Positions 25,857 through 35,469 of a stretch of 52,830 nt of DNA are shown here, piece by piece (positions within the stretch are counted from its first letter, which is position 1; each line of letters starts with the position of its first letter). The notes beneath the pieces were generated by a model. It saw only the letters and a list, made by a program, of their open reading frames with translations, had not been told where the DNA came from and did no database searches. The stretch comes from Rhodobacter sp. (GTDB taxonomy: Bacteria; Pseudomonadota; Alphaproteobacteria; Rhodobacterales; Rhodobacteraceae), in contig JADCEF010000015.1 of NCBI GenBank assembly GCA_020250445.1, positions 1 through 52,830 of the forward strand, written 5' to 3'. The translations under genes were made by a program, and so were the position numbers.

Positions 25857-27091
25857 TCGGCCACCCCGGCCTGCGCGGCGGCGGCACGCAGCACCTCGAT
25901 ATCCGCCGCGCGGTCGCCAAAAAGCTGCTGCGCCTCGGCCCAGATCGCGCGGGCGCGGTCGGTTTCCCCCAGCACGCCATAGGCCCTGATCAGACGGGCC
26001 CATTCCCCGGCACTGCCGCCCTGCGTTGCCAGACGGTCGCTGAGCCCTGCCACCATGCCGCGCACCATCTCCTGCCGTTGTTCCGGCGTCATCTCGGCAG
26101 CGGCCGCCACGGCATCGGCGTCCGGGCCGGGGGCTGTGCCTGCCGCATCGGGCAGCGCGTAATTGTCTTCGCCCGCTTCGCTGGCCACCTGCATCAGCTG
26201 CGCGCGCAGCGGGGTGACCCAGGGGTCGTCGGGAAGCGACCGATCCAGCAGCGGCGCCCATAATGAAAAGGTCCGGTCGGGCCGACCCACCTGGGCAAAC
26301 ATCAGGCCGGCATAATAGGTGGCCGTCCCGTTCAGCGGATCGCGCTGAAGGGCGCGGGTGATCTCGGCCTCTGCCTCGGGCGAGACATAGCCCCCCGCGC
26401 CCAGAATCATCATCTCGGCCAGCATGGCGTGATCGTCGGCGCTGACGGCATCGCCCAGGATGGCTATGACCCGTCTTTGCGCCGCCGCCGCCGCCGCGTA
26501 ATTGCCAAGGCCGGATTCGTTGCGCGCCAGCAGGCGGTGCCCCTCCAGATCCTCGGGGCGGTCCGTCAGCGCGCGGCGCAACTGGTCCATCAGCGTCGAA
26601 AAGGCAGGGTCAACAGGGCCGGGGGCCGGCGCGCGGGCGGCTGCGGCTGCCTCGGCCTCGGCCTGCGACGGACGGGTGCGATAGACCTCTTCCGAGGCCG
26701 CAAGCCGCCCGGCGATCGGCAGGTCCGGATAGCCGGGCGCGCCGAGGCGGGCATAGGTCCAGACCCCGCCCAGCATCACCGCCGCGACGAGACCCGCCAT
26801 GGCAAGCGTGATGCGGCGCGGGGCCGCGTCAGCGCCCGTCCGGGCATCGTCGCCCAGGGCACGATCCGCCTCCAGCACCCGGCGCGCCACCTCGGTGCGC
26901 AGCCGCCCGGCCTCGGCGGGGGCGATGACGCCGCGGGCCAGGTCGCGGTCCACCTCGCGCAGCTGGTCACGGTAGACGCGCAGGTCATAGGCCGCCGCCG
27001 GCCCGTCACCGGCGCGCCCGCGCAGCAGCGCCAGCAGCAGCAGCACTGTTACCGCAAGACCGATCCCTGCCGCCGCAATCCAGAATGCCAT
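25853..27091 (-). CDS. ccmI: Cytochrome c biogenesis protein CcmI
   Basis: A 412-residue membrane protein with TPR repeats that holds apocytochrome c for haem ligation in the System I pathway. The N-terminal TM (residues 2-23) is followed by the conserved DLRVYRDQLREVDRDLARGV cytoplasmic segment, a second TM (ITLAMAGLVAAVMLGGVW), and a periplasmic TPR domain (DRPEDLEGHRLLARNESGLG and following repeats). AAAGGGGGC precedes the ATG. It is separated from ccmABCDG (49-52 kb) in this window. It heads the leftward ccmI-ruvX-DUF1289 operon and is divergent from soxB. Confidence 0.93.
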   Translation of the reverse strand: MAFWIAAAGIGLAVTVLLLLALLRGRAGDGPAAAYDLRVYRDQLREVDRDLARGVIAPAEAGRLRTEVARRVLEADRALGDDARTGADAAPRRITLAMAGLVAAVMLGGVWTYARLGAPGYPDLPIAGRLAASEEVYRTRPSQAEAEAAAAARAPAPGPVDPAFSTLMDQLRRALTDRPEDLEGHRLLARNESGLGNYAAAAAAQRRVIAILGDAVSADDHAMLAEMMILGAGGYVSPEAEAEITRALQRDPLNGTATYYAGLMFAQVGRPDRTFSLWAPLLDRSLPDDPWVTPLRAQLMQVASEAGEDNYALPDAAGTAPGPDADAVAAAAEMTPEQRQEMVRGMVAGLSDRLATQGGSAGEWARLIRAYGVLGETDRARAIWAEAQQLFGDRAADIEVLRAAAAQAGVAE

Positions 27092-27267
27092 GCTGCCCCC
27101 TTTGATGGGAGTGGATGTAATCGCTGGCCGCCAAGGGCAAAAGGTGCAATCTTCTGCCGGGCTGTGGTGCCGTGTCGCATTTTTCCCGATTGTGCCGCTT
27201 GTGACTGCGGATAAAACTGTGTCCCGTTCCATAGCAGCGCCACAGCCGCACAGCGATCAGGCCGCCC

Positions 27268-28515
27268 ATGACACGCTATTCCGCTTTCGCCATCGCCCGT
27301 GAGGCGCTGCGCAACCATCAGGGCTGGCAGCGCGCCTGGGCCAGGGCCACGCCGAAGGCGCGCTATGATGTGGTGATCATCGGGGCCGGGGGCCACGGCC
27401 TGGCCACGGCCTATTACCTTGGCAGGAATCACGGCATCACCAATGTGGCGGTGATCGAAAAGGGCTGGCTGGGCGGCGGGAACACCGGGCGCAACACCAC
27501 GATCATCCGGTCGAACTATCTGCAGGACCCGTCGGCGGCGCTGTATGAAAAGGCGCGCAGCCTGTATGAGACGTTGAGCCAGGAGCTGAACTACAACGTC
27601 ATGTTCAGCCCGCGCGGGTTGTTGATGCTGGCCCAGACCCATCACGAGGTGCGCGGCTATCTGCGCACCGTGCATGCCAACATGCTGCAGGGGGTGCAGA
27701 CCGAATGGATCGGGCCGGACCGGGTGAAAGACCTGGTGCCGATCATCAATATCGACGGGCCGCGCTATCCGGTGCTGGGGGCGCTGTATCAGGCGCGCGG
27801 TGGCACGGCGCGGCATGATGCCGTGGCCTGGGGCTATGCCCGGGCCTGTTCGGCGATGGGCATGGACATCATCCAGCAATGCGAGGTGACCGGCGTGCGG
27901 TCCGACGCAGGCCGGGTGACGGGGGTGGAGACCACAAAAGGCTTCATCGGCACAGGCAAGCTGGGCATCGTCGTGGCCGGCCATTCGGGGCAGGTGGCCG
28001 AGATGGCCGGTTTCCGCCTGCCGGTCGAGGCGGTGGCGCTGCAGGCGCTGGTGTCTGAACCGATCAAGCCCTGCATGGATGTGGTGGTGATGGCCAATAC
28101 CGTGCATGGCTACATGAGCCAGTCCGACAAGGGCGAAATGGTGATCGGCGGCGGCACCGACGGGTTCAACAACTTCACCCAGCGCGGCAGCTTTCACCAT
28201 ATCGAGGAAACGTTGCGCGCCCTGATCGAGACCTTTCCGATGATCTCGCGCCTCAAGATGCTGCGCCAGTGGGGCGGCATCGTGGACATGACCGGGGACC
28301 GGTCCCCCATCATCTCCAAGACCCCGCTGGGCAACTGCTTCATCAACTGCGGCTGGGGCACCGGCGGGTTCAAGGCGATTCCCGGCTCCGGCTGGGCCAT
28401 GGCCGAACTGATGGCAAAGGGCGAGCCGGGGCCGCTGGCGGCGGATTTCGGGATGGAGCGGTTCCGCGAGGGGCGGTTCATCGATGAAAGCGTGGCGGCG
28501 GGGGTCGCGCATTGA
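27268..28515 (+). CDS. soxB: Sarcosine oxidase, beta subunit
   Basis: A 415-residue flavoprotein subunit of heterotetrameric sarcosine oxidase, which demethylates sarcosine to glycine with methylene-tetrahydrofolate and hydrogen peroxide as products. The FAD motif GAGGHG is at residues 39-44. H183 in GGTARHDAVAWGY is in the block that carries the covalent FMN in characterised enzymes (from memory). The C-terminus ends normally (GRFIDESVAAGVAH), so the gene is intact. It is the first gene of the sox operon. Its TGA shares a base with the ATG of an AT-rich foreign-looking gene. The ribosome-binding site is weak. Confidence 0.96.
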   Translation: MTRYSAFAIAREALRNHQGWQRAWARATPKARYDVVIIGAGGHGLATAYYLGRNHGITNVAVIEKGWLGGGNTGRNTTIIRSNYLQDPSAALYEKARSLYETLSQELNYNVMFSPRGLLMLAQTHHEVRGYLRTVHANMLQGVQTEWIGPDRVKDLVPIINIDGPRYPVLGALYQARGGTARHDAVAWGYARACSAMGMDIIQQCEVTGVRSDAGRVTGVETTKGFIGTGKLGIVVAGHSGQVAEMAGFRLPVEAVALQALVSEPIKPCMDVVVMANTVHGYMSQSDKGEMVIGGGTDGFNNFTQRGSFHHIEETLRALIETFPMISRLKMLRQWGGIVDMTGDRSPIISKTPLGNCFINCGWGTGGFKAIPGSGWAMAELMAKGEPGPLAADFGMERFREGRFIDESVAAGVAH

Positions 28516-29219
28516 TGAGTATTGAGCACTTTAGTTGGTGGAATATTGTTCCTTCGCTAGTCGGGGGATTAATGTCTGCGGCTTCTGCAGTTGGAATGTT
28601 TTATCTTGCTCAACGTACTGAGAGAAAGAAGCGTGAGGCAGAAGGAAGAAGGAAGTCTGCTCAAGCGGCCTTTGAGGGTTTTTGGAAGCTGCGGGCTATA
28701 GCAGCAGGGCAAATAAACCTGAATAGAGAGATCACGGATCAGTACATCGAAGCGCGACTTTCTGGTGCCGAAGATATGCTTCCTGCCAACAAGGTACTTG
28801 GGATTCTTGGGGCTCCTAATGGGTATGAGCACCTAGCCTCTTCCGAATATCTCTTCTTGATAAAGCAAAGGAAGGCGGAACTAATTGCCGAGATTGATCT
28901 CGTCGTGCGAAGAGCAATGAATAATGAAGTTTCTGCGCAAAAGTATAATGAATTGCGAATTGATTTCGAAGAATTTATTGCGAAGAATGCTGATTTTATT
29001 GCGCCTCATGCCGGGACAAGAGCATCAGTTGAACTTAAGGGAAATGCTGGCTCTATCGCAGATATCAAAATTAGTAGACTAAACAATCTTCTTGGTCAAA
29101 TTGAAGAACATTTGGACGAGGATTGCAAGAATTCAAAGAAGGTGGTTGAGGAATTCCTCATGGCTGCGCGCGCTGAATTTGGTGAAGATTTCCCCAAATT
29201 CAAATTCGAGTGGGAATAG
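28515..29219 (+). CDS. Unrecognised membrane-anchored helical protein, AT-rich insert in the sox operon
   Basis: A 234-residue protein I cannot assign to a family. One N-terminal hydrophobic segment (about residues 8-28, WNIVPSLVGGLMSAASAVGM) is followed by a basic stretch (AQRTERKKREAEGRRKSAQ) that should stay in the cytoplasm, then a long, mostly alpha-helical charged domain ending EDFPKFKFEWE. The DNA is strikingly poorer in GC than its surroundings: hand counts of two 60-base lines gave 28 % and 48 %, against roughly 65 % or more nearby, and codons end often in A or T. Its ATG shares a base with the soxB TGA, and soxD starts 2 nt after its stop. This looks like a horizontally acquired gene inserted in frame with operon translation. 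Confidence 0.82.
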   Translation: MSIEHFSWWNIVPSLVGGLMSAASAVGMFYLAQRTERKKREAEGRRKSAQAAFEGFWKLRAIAAGQINLNREITDQYIEARLSGAEDMLPANKVLGILGAPNGYEHLASSEYLFLIKQRKAELIAEIDLVVRRAMNNEVSAQKYNELRIDFEEFIAKNADFIAPHAGTRASVELKGNAGSIADIKISRLNNLLGQIEEHLDEDCKNSKKVVEEFLMAARAEFGEDFPKFKFEWE

Positions 29220-29221
29220 CA

Positions 29222-29542
29222 ATGCTTCTCCTGACCTGCCCCTGTTGCGGCATTGCCGCCGAGGAAACCGAGCTTGCCCCCGGCGGTGAGGCGCATCTGA
29301 AGCGCTTTGGCCCCGGATCGTCGGATGACGATTTCGAGGCCTACATGTTCGCGCGCAAGAACCCCAAGGGCGTGCATTTCGAACGCTGGCGGCATGCCTA
29401 TGGCTGCGGCAAGTGGTTCATGGCCGCGCGCTGCACCGCCACGCTGGAGGTGTTCGGCACCTATCCCGCGCAAGTGCCCGGCCCGCCGCCCGAAATCATG
29501 GCCCGGATCAAGGCCCGCCGCCCCGGCTGGTCCCCCGAATGA
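29222..29542 (+). CDS. soxD: Sarcosine oxidase, delta subunit
   Basis: A 106-residue zinc-binding subunit of the heterotetrameric sarcosine oxidase. Zinc ligand candidates are C6, C8 and C9 in TCPCCG plus H58 and C62 in WRHAYGCGKWF. The conserved FGPGSSDDDFEAYMFARKNP and GCGKWF blocks are present. Composition returns to the GC-rich norm at its first codons. It follows the AT-rich gene by 2 nt and is separated from soxA by 172 bp that include a palindrome pair, so the operon spacing is wider than usual here. Confidence 0.94.
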   Translation: MLLLTCPCCGIAAEETELAPGGEAHLKRFGPGSSDDDFEAYMFARKNPKGVHFERWRHAYGCGKWFMAARCTATLEVFGTYPAQVPGPPPEIMARIKARRPGWSPE

Positions 29543-29566
29543 CCCGCTGCCATCCCCCCCTTCCAT

Positions 29567-29686
29567 CCTCCCCCACAAGGGGGGAGGGGCCGGTCGCGCC
29601 CCCCTGCGCCGTCGGCCCCCGCATCCTGACGACGCTGCCCACCCGCGCCTGCTTGCCCCCTTGTGGGCGAGGGTTGGGGTGGGGGG
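29567..29686. repeat. Inverted palindrome pair (REPIN-like) between soxD and soxA
   Basis: The left arm (29567..29589) contains CCCCCACAAGGGGGG and the right arm (29655..29686) contains CCCCCTTGTGGG followed by a G-rich tail. The right arm is the reverse complement of the left in its core (CCCACAAGGGGG). About 65 bp separate them. This is the layout of paired REP sequences. It fills most of the soxD-soxA spacer. Confidence 0.7.
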
Positions 29687-29714
29687 CCGTCCACCAAGCC
29701 GCAGGAACAAGAGC

Positions 29715-32700
29715 ATGAGCACGCGTCTGGCCCGTGGCGGCCGCCTGATCGACCGGTCGTCGGCAGCCGAATTCACTTTCAACGGGAAGCGGTTGCGCGG
29801 CTACCGGGGCGATACGCTGGCCTCGGCGCTTTTGGCCAATGACCAGATGCTGGTCGGGCGCAGCTTCAAGTACCATCGCCCGCGCGGCATCGTCGGGTCC
29901 GGTCCGGAAGAACCAAATGCGCTGGTCAACCTCGGGCAGGGCGGGCGGCTGGAACCCAATCAGCGCGCCACCACGACGGAGCTTTTTGACGGGCTGGTCT
30001 GCACCAGCCAGAACCATTGGCCCAGCCTTGAATTCGATGTGGGCGTGCTGAACAATTATGCCGCGCGCCTTCTGCCGGCAGGGTTTTACTACAAGACCTT
30101 CATCCACCCGCGCGCCTTCTGGAAACATGTGTTCGAGCCGGTCATCCGCAAGGCGGCCGGCCTTGGCAAGGCACCGAAGGACCGCGATGCGGACCGCTAT
30201 GAACAGGCCTATGCCTTTTGCGACCTGCTGGTGATCGGCGGCGGGATTGCCGGGCTGGAAGCGGCCCTTGTCGCGGCCCGTGCGGGCCTGCGCGTGATGC
30301 TGCTGGAACAGGCCGCCCATTGGGGCGGGCGCGCGCCCGTGGACGGGCTTCAGATCGATGGCAGGCCGGCGCAGGACTGGGTCGATGCCACGGTGGCCAC
30401 CCTTGCCGCGATGGACAGCGTCACCCTGCGGCTGCGCTGCACCGGGGCCGGGGTTTACGATCACGGCTATGTCCTGGCGGATGAACGGGTGGCCGACCAT
30501 ACCCCCGGCGACGGGCGGCCCAAACACCGGCTGTGGCGCATCCGCGCCGGGCGCATCATCACCGCGACCGGGGCCATCGAACGCCCGCTGTCCTTTGCCG
30601 GCAATGACATTCCCGGCGTCATGCTCGCCTCGGCAGTGCGCGACTATGTCGTCAACCAGGCGGTGTCGCCCGGCGACCGCACCGTGGTTGTCACCAACAA
30701 TGACGATGCCTACCGCACCGCCATCGCGCTGGTGGAGGCGGGCCTTTCCGTACCTTGCATCATCGATGCCCGCAGCACCGCGTCCGGCCTGCTGGCCGAC
30801 CGTGCCCGCGCGCTGGGCATCCGCATCGAGGCGGGCCGGGCCATTGCAAAGGTCCGGGGCGGCAAGCGGGTGACGGGCGTGTCGCTGTGCCTCCAGGCGG
30901 GCGAGGGATCGGTGCTGGAAGAGATCGCCTGCGACGCCGTCGCCATGTCGGGCGGCTGGTCGCCCGTGGTGCATCTGTGGAGCCATTGCGGCGGCAAGCT
31001 GATCTGGGATGGCGCGCAGGCCTGTTTCCGCCCCGACCCCGACCGGCCGCCGCTGACCCATGACGGCAGCGCCATGGTCATCGCCGCCGGTGCCGCCAAT
31101 GGCGCGCTGGACGATGGGGCGGTGCTGGCCGATGCCCATGCCGCCGGTCTGGCCGCCGTGACGGCCGCAGGGGCCAGGGCGAAGAAACCGGCGGCCCCGG
31201 TGGTTGCCGACCCCGTCGCCCCTGCGGTGGAACCGGTCTGGGTGATGCCGCAGGGGGCTGGCCCCGACCTGCGCGCCAAGATGTGGCTTGACTATCAGAA
31301 CGATGTCAAGGTTTCGGACGTGCAGCTTGCGGCGCGCGAGGGCTATGAGAGTGTGGAGCATACCAAGCGCTATACCACGCTGGGCATGGCGACAGATCAG
31401 GGTAAACTTAGCAATATCAATGGGCTGGCCGTTCTTTCTCAGTCGTTGAATGAAGATATCCCGCAGGTGGGCACCACCACCTTCCGCCCGCCTTACACCC
31501 CCGTTACCCTGGGGGCGCTGGCAGGCGAGGCGCGGGGCGAGATTTTCCAGCCGCTGCGCCGCACCCCGATCCACGGCTGGCACGAGGCTGCCGGGGCTTA
31601 TCTTGAACCCGTCGGCCTGTGGCGCCGCCCCTATTGCTTTGCGCGACCGGGCGAGACGCATGAGCAGGCCGTCCACCGCGAGGTTCTGAACGTCCGCCAG
31701 GCGGTGGGCCTGCTGGATGCCTCGACCCTGGGCAAGATCATCGTCAAGGGCCCCGATGCGGGCCGGTTCCTGGACATGCTTTACACCGGCGTGATGTCGA
31801 CCCTGCCCGTCGGCAAATGCCGCTACGGGCTGATGTGCGGCGAATCCGGCTTTCTGATGGATGACGGTGTTGTGGCGCGCATCGATCAGGAGACCTGGCT
31901 GTGCCACACCACCTCGGGCGGGGCGGACCGCATCCATGGCCATATGGAAGACTGGCTGCAATGCGAATGGTGGGACTGGCAGGTCTTCACCGCCAATGTC
32001 ACCGAACAGTTTGCGCAAGTGGCCGTTGCCGGCCCCAACGCGCGCAAACTGCTGGAAAAGCTGGGCGGCATGGATGTGTCGAAAGAGGCGCTGCCCTTCA
32101 TGACCTGGGCCGATGGCACGCTGGGCGAGTTTGCCGTGCGCGCCTATCGCATCAGCTTCTCGGGCGAGCTCAGCTATGAAATCGCCGTGCCGGCCAGTCA
32201 CGGGCTGGCGTTCTGGAAGGCCTGCGTCGCGGCGGGCGAGGGGCTGGGCCTGATGCCCTACGGCACCGAGGCGCTGCATGTGCTGCGGGCCGAGAAGGGC
32301 TTTATCATGATCGGGGATGAAACCGACGGCACCGTCATTCCGCAGGACCTTGGCCTGGGCTGGGCGATCTCGAAGACGAAACCCGATTATCTGGGCAAGC
32401 GCGGGCAGGAACGGCCCTTCCTGGCCGCGGCCGACCGCTGGCGACTGGTCGGCCTTGAAACGCTGGATGGCTCTGTCATCCCCGATGGTGCCTATGCGGT
32501 GGCCGAAGGGACGAACCCGAACGGGCAGCGCAACGTGCAGGGGCGCGTCACCTCGAGCTATTTCTCGCCGACGCTGGGGCGCGGCATTGCCATGGGGCTG
32601 GTGCGCCGCGGGCCGGAGCGGATGGGCGAGGTGCTTGAATTTCCAAAGGTCGGGGGCGGGTCCGTCATGGCGCGCATCGTGGGTCCGGTGGTTTACGACA

Positions 32701-33421: not shown

Positions 33422-34024
33422 ATGGCCTTCACCCTTCCCGATCTTCCCTATGCCCATGACGCGCTTGCAGCCCTTGGCATGTCCAAAGAAACGCTGGAAT
33501 ACCACCACGACCTGCACCACAAGGCCTATGTCGACAACGGCAACAAGCTGATCGCCGGCACCGAGTGGGAAAACAGATCGGTCGAAGACATCGTGACCGG
33601 CACCTATCAGGCCGGTGCCGTGGCGCAGAACGGCATTTTCAACAATGCCAGCCAGCACTGGAACCACGCCCTGTTCTGGCAGATCATGGGGCCGGGCGAG
33701 GCCAAGAAGATGCCCGGTGTGCTGGACAAGGCCCTGACCGAGGCCTTCGGTTCGGTGCAGAAGTTCAAGGATGATTTCGCCGCCGCCGGGGCCGGTCAGT
33801 TCGGCTCTGGCTGGGCCTGGCTGGTCAGGGACAAGGACGGGTCGCTGAAGGTCACCAAGACCGAGAACGGCGTGAACCCGCTGTGCTTCGGCCAGACCGC
33901 CCTTCTGGGCTGCGACGTGTGGGAGCACAGCTACTACATCGACTTCCGCAACAGGCGCCCGGCCTATCTGACCAATTTCCTTGAGAAACTGGTCAACTGG
34001 GACGCAGTCGCGGCACGGATGTGA
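33422..34024 (+). CDS. sodB: Superoxide dismutase (Fe/Mn family, probably Fe)
   Basis: A 200-residue cytoplasmic superoxide dismutase. The four metal ligands are visible: H28 in LEYHHDLHHKAYV, H82 in SQHWNHALFW, and D165 and H169 in GCDVWEHSYYIDF. The overall pattern (start AFTLPDLPYAHDALAALGMS, length 200) resembles SodB more than SodA, so iron is the more likely metal. A strong AGAGGAGAG ribosome-binding site and a good promoter precede it. It stands just after the sarcosine oxidase operon, whose product includes hydrogen peroxide, although no regulatory link is visible. Confidence 0.95.
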   Translation: MAFTLPDLPYAHDALAALGMSKETLEYHHDLHHKAYVDNGNKLIAGTEWENRSVEDIVTGTYQAGAVAQNGIFNNASQHWNHALFWQIMGPGEAKKMPGVLDKALTEAFGSVQKFKDDFAAAGAGQFGSGWAWLVRDKDGSLKVTKTENGVNPLCFGQTALLGCDVWEHSYYIDFRNRRPAYLTNFLEKLVNWDAVAARM

Positions 34025-34025
34025 C

Positions 34026-34910
34026 GTGACACGACGCGGGTTGTTCAAGGGCCTGCTCGGGATTGCCCTGGCAGGCCTTTTTTCAGCCGTTTATGCGTTC
34101 TTTGTCGAACCGGCCTGGCGGTTCCGGGTCCGGCGCTGGCGGGTCAATGCAGCCAATTGGCCCGCGTCCCCGGTCCGGATACTGGCAATCAGCGACTTGC
34201 ACCTGGGCGAGCCTTACATCGGTCTGAACCGGCTTTCCCGCATCGTGGCGCGGGCCAACGCGCTGGACGCGGACATCGTCGTGCTGCTGGGCGACTATGC
34301 GGCAGGGCACAGGTTTATCTCTGCCCCCGTCAGAATTGCCGATGCCGCACCGGTCCTTGCCGGATTGCGCGCCAAACTGGGCGTCTATGCCATTCTTGGC
34401 AATCATGACTGGTGGGATGACCGGAGCGCGCAGAAACGGGGCGGTGGTCCGAACCTTTATGCGACCGCGCTGGAGGTTGCGGGAATACCGGTCCTGTCCA
34501 ACCGCGCTGTCCGGGTGCGGGATTTCTGGCTGGCGGGGCTGGAAGACCAGTTGGCCCTGCTGCGCAAGGAAAATGGCATCGTCGGGCTGGATGATCTGCC
34601 GGGTACCCTTGCGCAGGTGACCGACGGGGCGCCTGTCATCCTTTTGGCGCATGAGCCCGACATCTTTCCCAAGGTGCCGGGACGGGTGGCGTTGACACTG
34701 TCCGGCCACACGCATGGCGGGCAGCTTCGGTTATTCGGTTGGTCACCTGTTGTGCCGTCGCGCTATGGCAACCGATACGCCTATGGCCATGTCCATGAAG
34801 AAGGGCGGAGCCTGGTGGTTTCGGGTGGGATCGGCTGCTCCATCCTGCCGGTTCGGTTCGGCGTGCCGCCCGAGATCACCCTGGTCGAGCTTGGCCCGGC
34901 GCTGGCCTGA
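34026..34910 (+). CDS. Metallophosphoesterase with Tat-like signal
   Basis: A 294-residue calcineurin-like phosphoesterase. The metal-binding motifs are in order: DLH (D57, H59), LLGDY, GNHDW, the His of LLAHEPD, and GHTHGGQ. The N-terminus VTRRGLFKGLLGIALAGLFS has a twin-arginine pattern followed by a hydrophobic stretch, so it may be membrane-anchored facing the periplasm. It matches the YkuE/LpxH-like group that hydrolyses small phosphoesters. The GTG start at 34026 is the first codon after the sodB stop region; sodB stops at 34024. Substrate is unknown. Confidence 0.87.
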   Translation: MTRRGLFKGLLGIALAGLFSAVYAFFVEPAWRFRVRRWRVNAANWPASPVRILAISDLHLGEPYIGLNRLSRIVARANALDADIVVLLGDYAAGHRFISAPVRIADAAPVLAGLRAKLGVYAILGNHDWWDDRSAQKRGGGPNLYATALEVAGIPVLSNRAVRVRDFWLAGLEDQLALLRKENGIVGLDDLPGTLAQVTDGAPVILLAHEPDIFPKVPGRVALTLSGHTHGGQLRLFGWSPVVPSRYGNRYAYGHVHEEGRSLVVSGGIGCSILPVRFGVPPEITLVELGPALA

Positions 34911-34914
34911 CTGC

Positions 34915-35469
34915 TCAGCCCAGCGCCCCGCGCAGCCGCAGGGCCAGCGCGGCCACATCATCCACCACCGTGGCATAGCTGCGCATCGGTGCCTCGGCAA
35001 AGCCCTGGTCGATGACATGATCCACCAGCGCGATCAGCGGGGTCCAGTAGCCGTTGGTGTTCAGCACGTAGATCGGCTTGCGGTGCAGCCCGATCTGCCG
35101 CCAGGTCAGCACCTCGAAAAACTCGTCCAGCGTGCCCGCGCCGCCCGGCAGCACGATGATCGCGTCCGAGTTCATGAACATCACTTTCTTGCGTTCGTGC
35201 ATGTCCTCGGTGATCACCAGCGTTGTCAGGTCGCGCCGCCCCTGTTCGCGTGCCATCAGATGCGTGGGGATCACGCCCAGCGTGCGCGCCCCCGCCCCTT
35301 GGGCGGATCGTGCCACCTCGCCCATCAGGCCGACGTCGCCCGCACCATAGACCAAGCGCCAGCCTTCTGCCGCGATCAGCGCGCCCAGGGCGCGCGCCTC
35401 ATCCGCATAGGCAGGATGCCCGCCGGGGCGTGAACCGCAGAACACACAGACGGATCGAAGCTGGGTCAT
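34915..35469 (-). CDS. LOG-family protein (Rossmann fold, nucleotide phosphoribohydrolase-like)
   Basis: A 184-residue Rossmann-fold protein of the LOG/YgdH family, which in studied members removes ribose 5-phosphate from cytokinin-type nucleotides (AMP-type). The signature PGGAGTLDE is at residues 108-116, with MHERKK just before it and GSRPGG near the N-terminus. It is convergent with the metallophosphoesterase (4 nt between stops) and divergent from the LysM gene. The bacterial role is often unclear; cytokinin activation or purine nucleotide breakdown are possible. Confidence 0.9.
   Translation of the reverse strand: MTQLRSVCVFCGSRPGGHPAYADEARALGALIAAEGWRLVYGAGDVGLMGEVARSAQGAGARTLGVIPTHLMAREQGRRDLTTLVITEDMHERKKVMFMNSDAIIVLPGGAGTLDEFFEVLTWRQIGLHRKPIYVLNTNGYWTPLIALVDHVIDQGFAEAPMRSYATVVDDVAALALRLRGALG

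Follow-up and report, generated by a model that had tools for sequence, protein, structure and literature searches.

An AT-rich, single-transmembrane gene in an exchange hot spot of a Rhodobacteraceae sarcosine oxidase operon: candidate conflict cargo between soxB and soxD

A 52,830-nt stretch of DNA from Rhodobacter sp. (assembly GCA_020250445.1, contig JADCEF010000015.1; hereafter the window) carries a sarcosine oxidase operon in which an open reading frame (ORF) of 234 amino acids (aa) occupies the interval between soxB and soxD. The comparison of this interval, here called the slot, among relatives gives good support to the conclusion that the soxB-soxD junction is an exchange hot spot, the contents of which are exchanged as a unit. 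The ORF has homologues in other genomes, here named family A, and by association this family is read as conflict cargo, probably directed against phages, with a probability of roughly 0.55.

The borders of the slot are formed by two genes of the operon. On the left lies the 3' end of soxB (415 aa, 27268..28515, + strand; ORF list, Pfam DAO at E 2.2e-68), which is taken to encode the beta subunit of sarcosine oxidase, and on the right lies soxD for the delta subunit (29222..29542, + strand; ORF list, Pfam SoxD at E 3.5e-27). The AT-rich resident between them, which is present in the ORF list and backed by homologues (28515..29219, + strand), starts with an ATG at 28515-28517 that uses the final base of the soxB stop TGA (28513-28515), giving a TGATG overlap with one base in common (28513..28517, + strand). 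Its stop TAG lies at 29217-29219, and 2 nt separate it from the soxD ATG at 29222. The sequence-only reading, made from the letters of the window before any search, had held that the gene was fitted in without breaking the operon, and this is what the shared base and the 2-nt gap show; the coupling-type arrangement that it described is likewise supported as anatomy, from which the ORF is probably translated by coupling to soxB. A simple consensus scan of 27100-29800 found no terminator-like sites and no promoter-like sites on the + strand, no RNA family reached its gathering score in 27000-30000, and the two junction RNAs did not fold better than their shuffles. Ahead of the soxD start there is a purine-rich stretch, formed by GAGTGG-type end codons, in the window and at two further family A loci (L002 and L040). 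A 13-nt inverted repeat (92%) was also observed at window 29174-29202, near the 3' end of the ORF and just before soxD.

The composition of the gene is that of a foreign sequence. Its GC content is 0.44, and 0.40 at third codon positions (GC3), versus 0.66 and 0.87 for soxB, and nowhere else in the window does the GC content fall below 52% (500-nt windows, step 100). Its codon adaptation index is 0.348 versus a mean of 0.691 (standard deviation 0.071) for 36 ORFs of the window, a background picked by a fixed rule (a length of 150 aa or more and a GC3 above 0.7) and raised by the GC3 filter. Thus, the foreign composition that had been proposed is borne out by both GC and codon usage. The ORF is a real protein-coding gene: homologues compared in eight pairs have an identity of 46-80% at codon positions 1 and 2 versus 28-38% at position 3, and since the first two positions are far better kept than the third, the family A protein is under selection. 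A chance ORF or an annotation artefact is ruled out by the homologues together with this codon-position constraint.

Within the genus, seven genomes were compared (G000 to G006, G000 being that of the window), and family A is present in G000 only; its absence from six of the seven is in line with the sequence-only reading. Two of the genomes are only 83 and 87% complete (G002 and G003, respectively), and the soxB-soxD junctions in both were read directly. The SoxB proteins are 99.5% (G003), 98.6% (G004), 98.1% (G005), 93% (G002) and 92% (G001 and G006) identical to that of the window, and between 22.7 and 34 kb G003, G004 and G005 are colinear with it at 82-99% nucleotide identity per 300 bp. 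The slots of these genomes differ throughout: 1044 bp with a GC content of 0.68 in G003, 742 bp with 0.65 in G005, 400 bp with 0.68 in G002, 94 bp in G001 and G006 and, in G004, a slot of GC 0.44 with a 224-aa ORF that starts on the soxB stop and overlaps soxD by 14 nt. No match to the slot sequence of the window was seen in G003, G004, G005, G001 or G006, and the G004 resident has no similarity to the window ORF at E 1e-3. Because near-identical operons differ in their whole contents, the change is one of replacement and not of addition. The earlier picture of an insertion at an existing junction has therefore to be revised, as relative to the congeners the foreign ORF takes the place of the spacer and does not lie inside it.

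The G004 resident is possibly HEPN-like. Its residues 58-96 match Pfam HEPN_RiboL-PSP at E 7.4e-4, with a score of 19.9 that is below the cut-off of 28.4, residues 129-154 match DUF4145 at 0.028, and the protein contains the string RNVVAH. Relatives of this ORF were found in none of 295 family genomes (E <=1e-5), a set in which no genome is known to hold it.

A similar variability is present across the family. Junctions were taken from 100 of the first 105 genomes ranked by the likeness of their SoxB to that of the window, leaving out G000, G013 (a known holder of family A), G034, G074 and G186 (too near a contig end); seven without soxD in the stretch were dropped, and in the remaining 93, which are not corrected for relatedness, the soxB-soxD gap ranges from 10 to 1397 bp. 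In the 82 genomes that also show soxA, soxB and soxD are more than 150 bp apart in 57 and soxD and soxA in only 3, with medians of 445 and -4 bp, respectively. Such operons had been thought normally to run without a gene at this place, a statement that these 57 of 82 relatives contradict for the family. The junction thus combines unrelated contents in close relatives with a variability above that of the control junction soxD-soxA, as is characteristic of a hot spot. No description of a soxB-soxD insertion hot spot was found in the open-licence PubMed Central (PMC) literature, among the matches listed.

In 12 of the 93 junctions the soxB stop is directly adjoined by an AT-rich ORF, defined by a length of at least 60 aa and a GC content lower than that of the soxB 3' end by more than 0.12. 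Six of these ORFs belong to a second family (family B) and two to a third, while four are without known kin and may be due to chance (L057, L066, L075, L076). Among ORFs of at least 80 aa, those abutting the stop number 12; another 2 share its strand and begin at a different place, and 3 are encoded on the opposite strand. The sequence T[AG]ATG, that is, TG directly after the soxB stop, occurs in 63 of the 93 relatives, including 17 of 26 near-empty junctions, versus a TG frequency of 6.4% in spacers; the overlap of stop and ATG is perhaps the relic of an old overlap between soxB and soxD. Family B consists of small proteins with two hydrophobic segments (judged by eye) and a TLQWGFGD-like motif (L149-L177). 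It is found in 26 of 295 genomes, in 24 of which it occupies the soxB-soxD interval, sometimes twice; some copies are not AT-rich. Eight members gave no significant match to PADLOC models, one of them resembling RTasSLATT weakly at E 0.0057. The third resident family, observed just after soxB (L077, L108), comprises proteins of about 120-125 aa with similar N-termini and no Pfam match.

Family A itself is rare and widely scattered. A single-sequence search gave matches in 12 of 295 family genomes at E <=0.1, four of which were kept, while the other eight (E 0.006-0.08) were set aside as chance. A four-row profile then detected the family in 8 of 394 family genomes (E <=0.001) and an eight-row profile in 8 of 292 genomes of the order (E <=1e-4), four of them new; a scan of genome contigs gave two loci, one of which was new and the second apparently identical to the G320 locus. 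This amounts to 13 distinct loci, from profiles which, like that of family B, were first built from sox-junction members. A profile search at the level of the class returned only the genome of the window among 114 genomes. The possibility that the ORF is unique to its own genome is refuted by these homologues.

Six of the 13 loci lie directly behind soxB, each in a different genus (the window, L002, L003, L004, L040 and L041). The start overlaps the soxB stop in five of the six, in L041 via an inferred TTG, and soxD lies within about 40 nt or overlaps in five of the six; in L004 the start is 10 nt behind the soxB stop, a GC-rich native-looking gene follows and soxD is reached 2.2 kb after soxB. 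The gene is thus not the lone orphan at a virgin site for which it had been taken, given its homologues behind soxB in five other genera. Three loci are found in restriction islands: in G374 (L042/L140) and G417 (L127/L141) family A heads hsdR, hsdS and hsdM, with a phage integrase on the other side in G374, and in G550 (L128/L142) a DUF4238 gene lies 350 bp off (PADLOC DUF4238-Pers, 1.1e-9) and hsdM-hsdS 4.3 kb on. The remaining members lie directly or closely 3' of thyX (L043, L129), tail to tail with a gyrB/parE-type gene (L130) and upstream of a ribF gene (L131). These neighbours were confirmed by Pfam, and membership is weaker for the thyX/parE group (L043 at E 9e-7; L130 at E 1e-5 over 65 profile positions). 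The distant family A members at the thyX 3' end belong to two genera (L143 8528-9346, L144 8669-9418), so that this end is perhaps another slot beside a core gene. Behind the member in L143 (G473) there is an HTH_3 gene at a distance of 370 bp, and the one in L144 (G105) is neighboured by a convergent gene with a caspase domain.

The history of the family is horizontal in several respects. All 13 members have a GC content of 0.42-0.53, each below its own surroundings (0.49-0.70); the slot members have 0.44-0.46, with GC3 0.40-0.47, versus 0.58-0.69 and 0.67-0.97 for their soxB genes. Family A proteins are 20-42% identical (eight members), versus 75-84% for SoxB of the six slot genomes. In the tree, a branch with 98/97 support joins the slot members of G103 and G320 with the ribF and two restriction-island members, the slot members form one group in 0% of 200 bootstrap trees, and the starred branches require at least two changes between the labels sox and other; the place of the window member is not settled and several placements are unsure owing to long branches. 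Judged from these sequences, family A is a new mobile family, the slot members of which are not one clade. Four plasmid matches (H1-H4, E 0.1-0.5) were taken for chance; H1 and H2 have neither soxB nor soxD nearby, and H1 lies inside a larger ORF read as cobG-like.

The encoded protein is predicted to be simple in its architecture. A single hydrophobic peak marks a transmembrane (TM) segment at residues 11-29 (28545..28601, + strand), which is partly covered by residues 1-22, where the confidence of the structural model is low. It is followed by a basic hinge at residues 34-47 (28614..28655, + strand), residues 30-60 containing 10 K/R versus 4 D/E, and by an all-helical domain at residues 48-225 (28656..29189, + strand). 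The best AlphaFold2 model, from a shallow alignment of 3 sequences, is all helical, with a predicted local distance difference test (pLDDT) of 77.8 and a predicted template modelling score (pTM) of 0.69; its helices span residues 12-82, 109-117, 121-158 and 176-225, and its low-confidence regions are residues 1-22 and 161-171. The remaining four models of the window ORF are poor (pLDDT 39.8-43.3). A second prediction with the L131 homologue placed first (pLDDT 71.8, pTM 0.63) has the same order of main helices and a split N-terminal part, and the non-best models across both predictions have a mean pLDDT of 39.7-51.7. The positive-inside rule would put the C-terminal helical part in the cytoplasm, and the family A ORF is thus modelled as an all-helical, single-TM protein of the inner membrane with a cytoplasmic domain. 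The N-terminal TM segment, basic hinge and helical domain that had been read from the translation therefore reappear in the hydropathy, the charge count and the model.

Pfam, NCBIfam, PHROGs and PADLOC gave no significant match for the window ORF and three homologues, and a profile of all 13 members found no relative in PDB (best E 0.28). Matches to superoxide dismutase (NCBIfam, two of four members, best E 0.0075), to PHROGs (a family of unknown function at 0.0088, holin at 0.027) and to PDB entries were judged chance. When columns of charged residues, His, Tyr, Trp and Cys were counted over the 13 members, the best kept were K (12/13), E (12), Y (11) and R (11), and no His column was kept in at least nine. 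The statement that no catalytic motif is recognisable is upheld, in agreement with the profile searches.

A protein that is sporadic, fast-diverging, AT-rich in its gene and single-TM, that has kin heading restriction operons and that shares its seat with a possibly HEPN-like alternative has the traits to be expected of anti-phage cargo. The guess of defence cargo made at the outset thereby gains indirect support, from the restriction islands and from the G004 resident, and stops short of proof. Several points weigh against the conflict reading. G374 and G417 share their hsdR locus (81% nucleotide identity over 1364 bp) and are not independent, and the island members of G417 and G550 have the least AT-rich genes (GC 0.53 and 0.52). 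PADLOC defence models were unmatched by four members (best E 0.023, in one member that is not the window ORF), the G004 resident has no PADLOC match either, and its best HEPN stretch, besides staying below the Pfam cut-off, does not include RNVVAH. No restriction genes were seen beside the thyX, gyrB/parE and ribF members in ORF lists inspected by eye, and the HTH_3 and caspase-domain neighbours in G473 and G105 may or may not be relevant to a conflict role. Several slot residents are GC-rich, native-looking small genes, no recombinase or border repeats were found at the sox slot, clustering of the labels sox and other on the tree is not strong (values as low arise in 43-55 of 500 shuffles), and no convincing family A homologue was found in phage or plasmid records or in viral contigs.

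In its most ambitious and still doubtful form, the conflict reading would make the slot a built-in docking site for immune cargo in a core operon, with a start offered by the soxB TGATG, immediate expression of an incoming ORF by coupling, co-regulation with the catabolism of sarcosine and betaine, and swapping between species by recombination through the sox genes that needs no mobile-element machinery. The site would have family A, family B and the HEPN-like ORF as its rotating cassettes, and the first of these would represent a new family of membrane defence proteins.

Of the other explanations, the least unlikely accepts the slot and its exchange and denies the defence. Family A would be selfish or neutral cargo, or would have some other role at the membrane (stress, envelope, surface exclusion), and the sox operon would be a safe and expressed landing place. 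This agrees with the lack of a significant match to any defence family, with the 4 of 13 loci beside thyX, gyrB/parE and ribF, where no restriction genes were seen in the stretches read, and with family B, which is tied to sox in 24 of 26 genomes, unlike scattered defence genes. The three loci in restriction islands speak against it, and a neutral passenger in particular is disfavoured by the purifying selection on the family A protein.

It is distinctly improbable that the ORF is an accessory of sarcosine metabolism, namely a membrane protein that partners the Sox complex, evolves fast, is ancestral in the operon and was lost in most lineages. Such a role would explain why position and orientation are common to six genera, why family B is nearly exclusive to sox and why 17 of 26 near-empty junctions keep a TGATG overlap like a possible fossil start. 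However, 7 of the 13 family A loci lie away from sox, only one of seven same-genus genomes has the gene, the congener G004 has an unrelated ORF in the same place, and the slot members hold a GC content of 0.44-0.46 across hosts of differing GC and are not one clade. The ORF does not match the SoxA, SoxB, SoxD or SoxG families, and it is not conserved with the operon, as family A is found in 8 of 394 family genomes versus soxB (E <=1e-100) in 286 of 295. Thus, neither a general presence among relatives nor orthology to a known Sox subunit, either of which would have spoken for an operon gene proper, was found. Finally, a site-specific element, in which the ORF or a lost recombinase targets the conserved soxB 3' end, is very improbable: five slot members are seated on the soxB stop and the sixth 10 nt behind it, and the G374 relative adjoins a phage integrase, but the ORF has no detected recombinase or nuclease domain, border repeats are missing (a direct pair of 10 nt and an inverted pair of 12 nt within soxB and soxD being taken for chance), several unrelated genes share the seat and congeners differ by the entire spacer and not by an addition.

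As to mechanism, the contents of the slot (nothing, GC-rich native-looking genes or AT-rich foreign genes) would be exchanged by homologous recombination through the sox flanks, as these genes are conserved in nearly all relatives and would therefore be enough for a swap. An ORF arriving on the soxB stop would receive the sox transcript and would be translated by termination-reinitiation at TGATG, while soxD may retain a translation entry of its own through the purine-rich stretch seen in the window, L002 and L040. The family A product would then act against phages, probably as a membrane effector or sensor of the abortive-infection type.

Similar arrangements are known from other bacteria. 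P2-like prophages and P4-like satellites have anti-phage hot spots between conserved genes, which, like the slot, are small high-turnover loci between two conserved genes with varied contents and TM proteins (PMC9122126). These measure about 1-5 kb and are located in mobile elements (PMC9122126), whereas the sox slot measures 0.01-2.2 kb in the limited stretches examined and belongs to a chromosomal metabolic operon, its residents being mostly in operon orientation and apparently coupled. The core defence hot spots cDHS1 and cDHS2 of Pseudomonas aeruginosa also have core-gene borders and changing contents, mostly genes of unknown function (PMC10250203). Their medians are 26 and 6 kb and they hold dozens of immune systems (PMC10250203), unlike the sox slot with one or few small genes in an operon that stays joined.

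At the protein level, one group of TM-anchored HEPN proteins is described as combining a cytoplasmic HEPN domain with one TM segment at the N-terminus that bears a WP signature (PMC3710099). The likeness extends to the slot in that the G004 resident may be a HEPN protein; family A, unlike HEPN RNases, has no conserved R-x4-6-H, such strings being found in 6 of 13 members and not in the window ORF. SLATT proteins are effectors with two TM helices plus a helical cytoplasmic part, and family A differs from them by its one hydrophobic peak and by having no SLATT match.

Elsewhere in the window, a metallophosphoesterase-like ORF (33981-34910) was observed behind a superoxide dismutase-like gene, and the interval of about 34100-35000 is unmatched in the colinear parts of G003, G004, G005, G001 and G006. 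This is perhaps a second variable place.

The discovery of defence genes largely leans on co-location in defence islands (PMC13092281), and single genes seated in core operons escape such an approach. Should the slot indeed be a site for cargo, an inventory of its residents in the whole family would provide candidates for immune or conflict genes, and the search for expandable junctions beside rigid ones would be applicable to other core operons. In that case, foreign genes would gain expression without a promoter of their own, by way of a borrowed stop codon.

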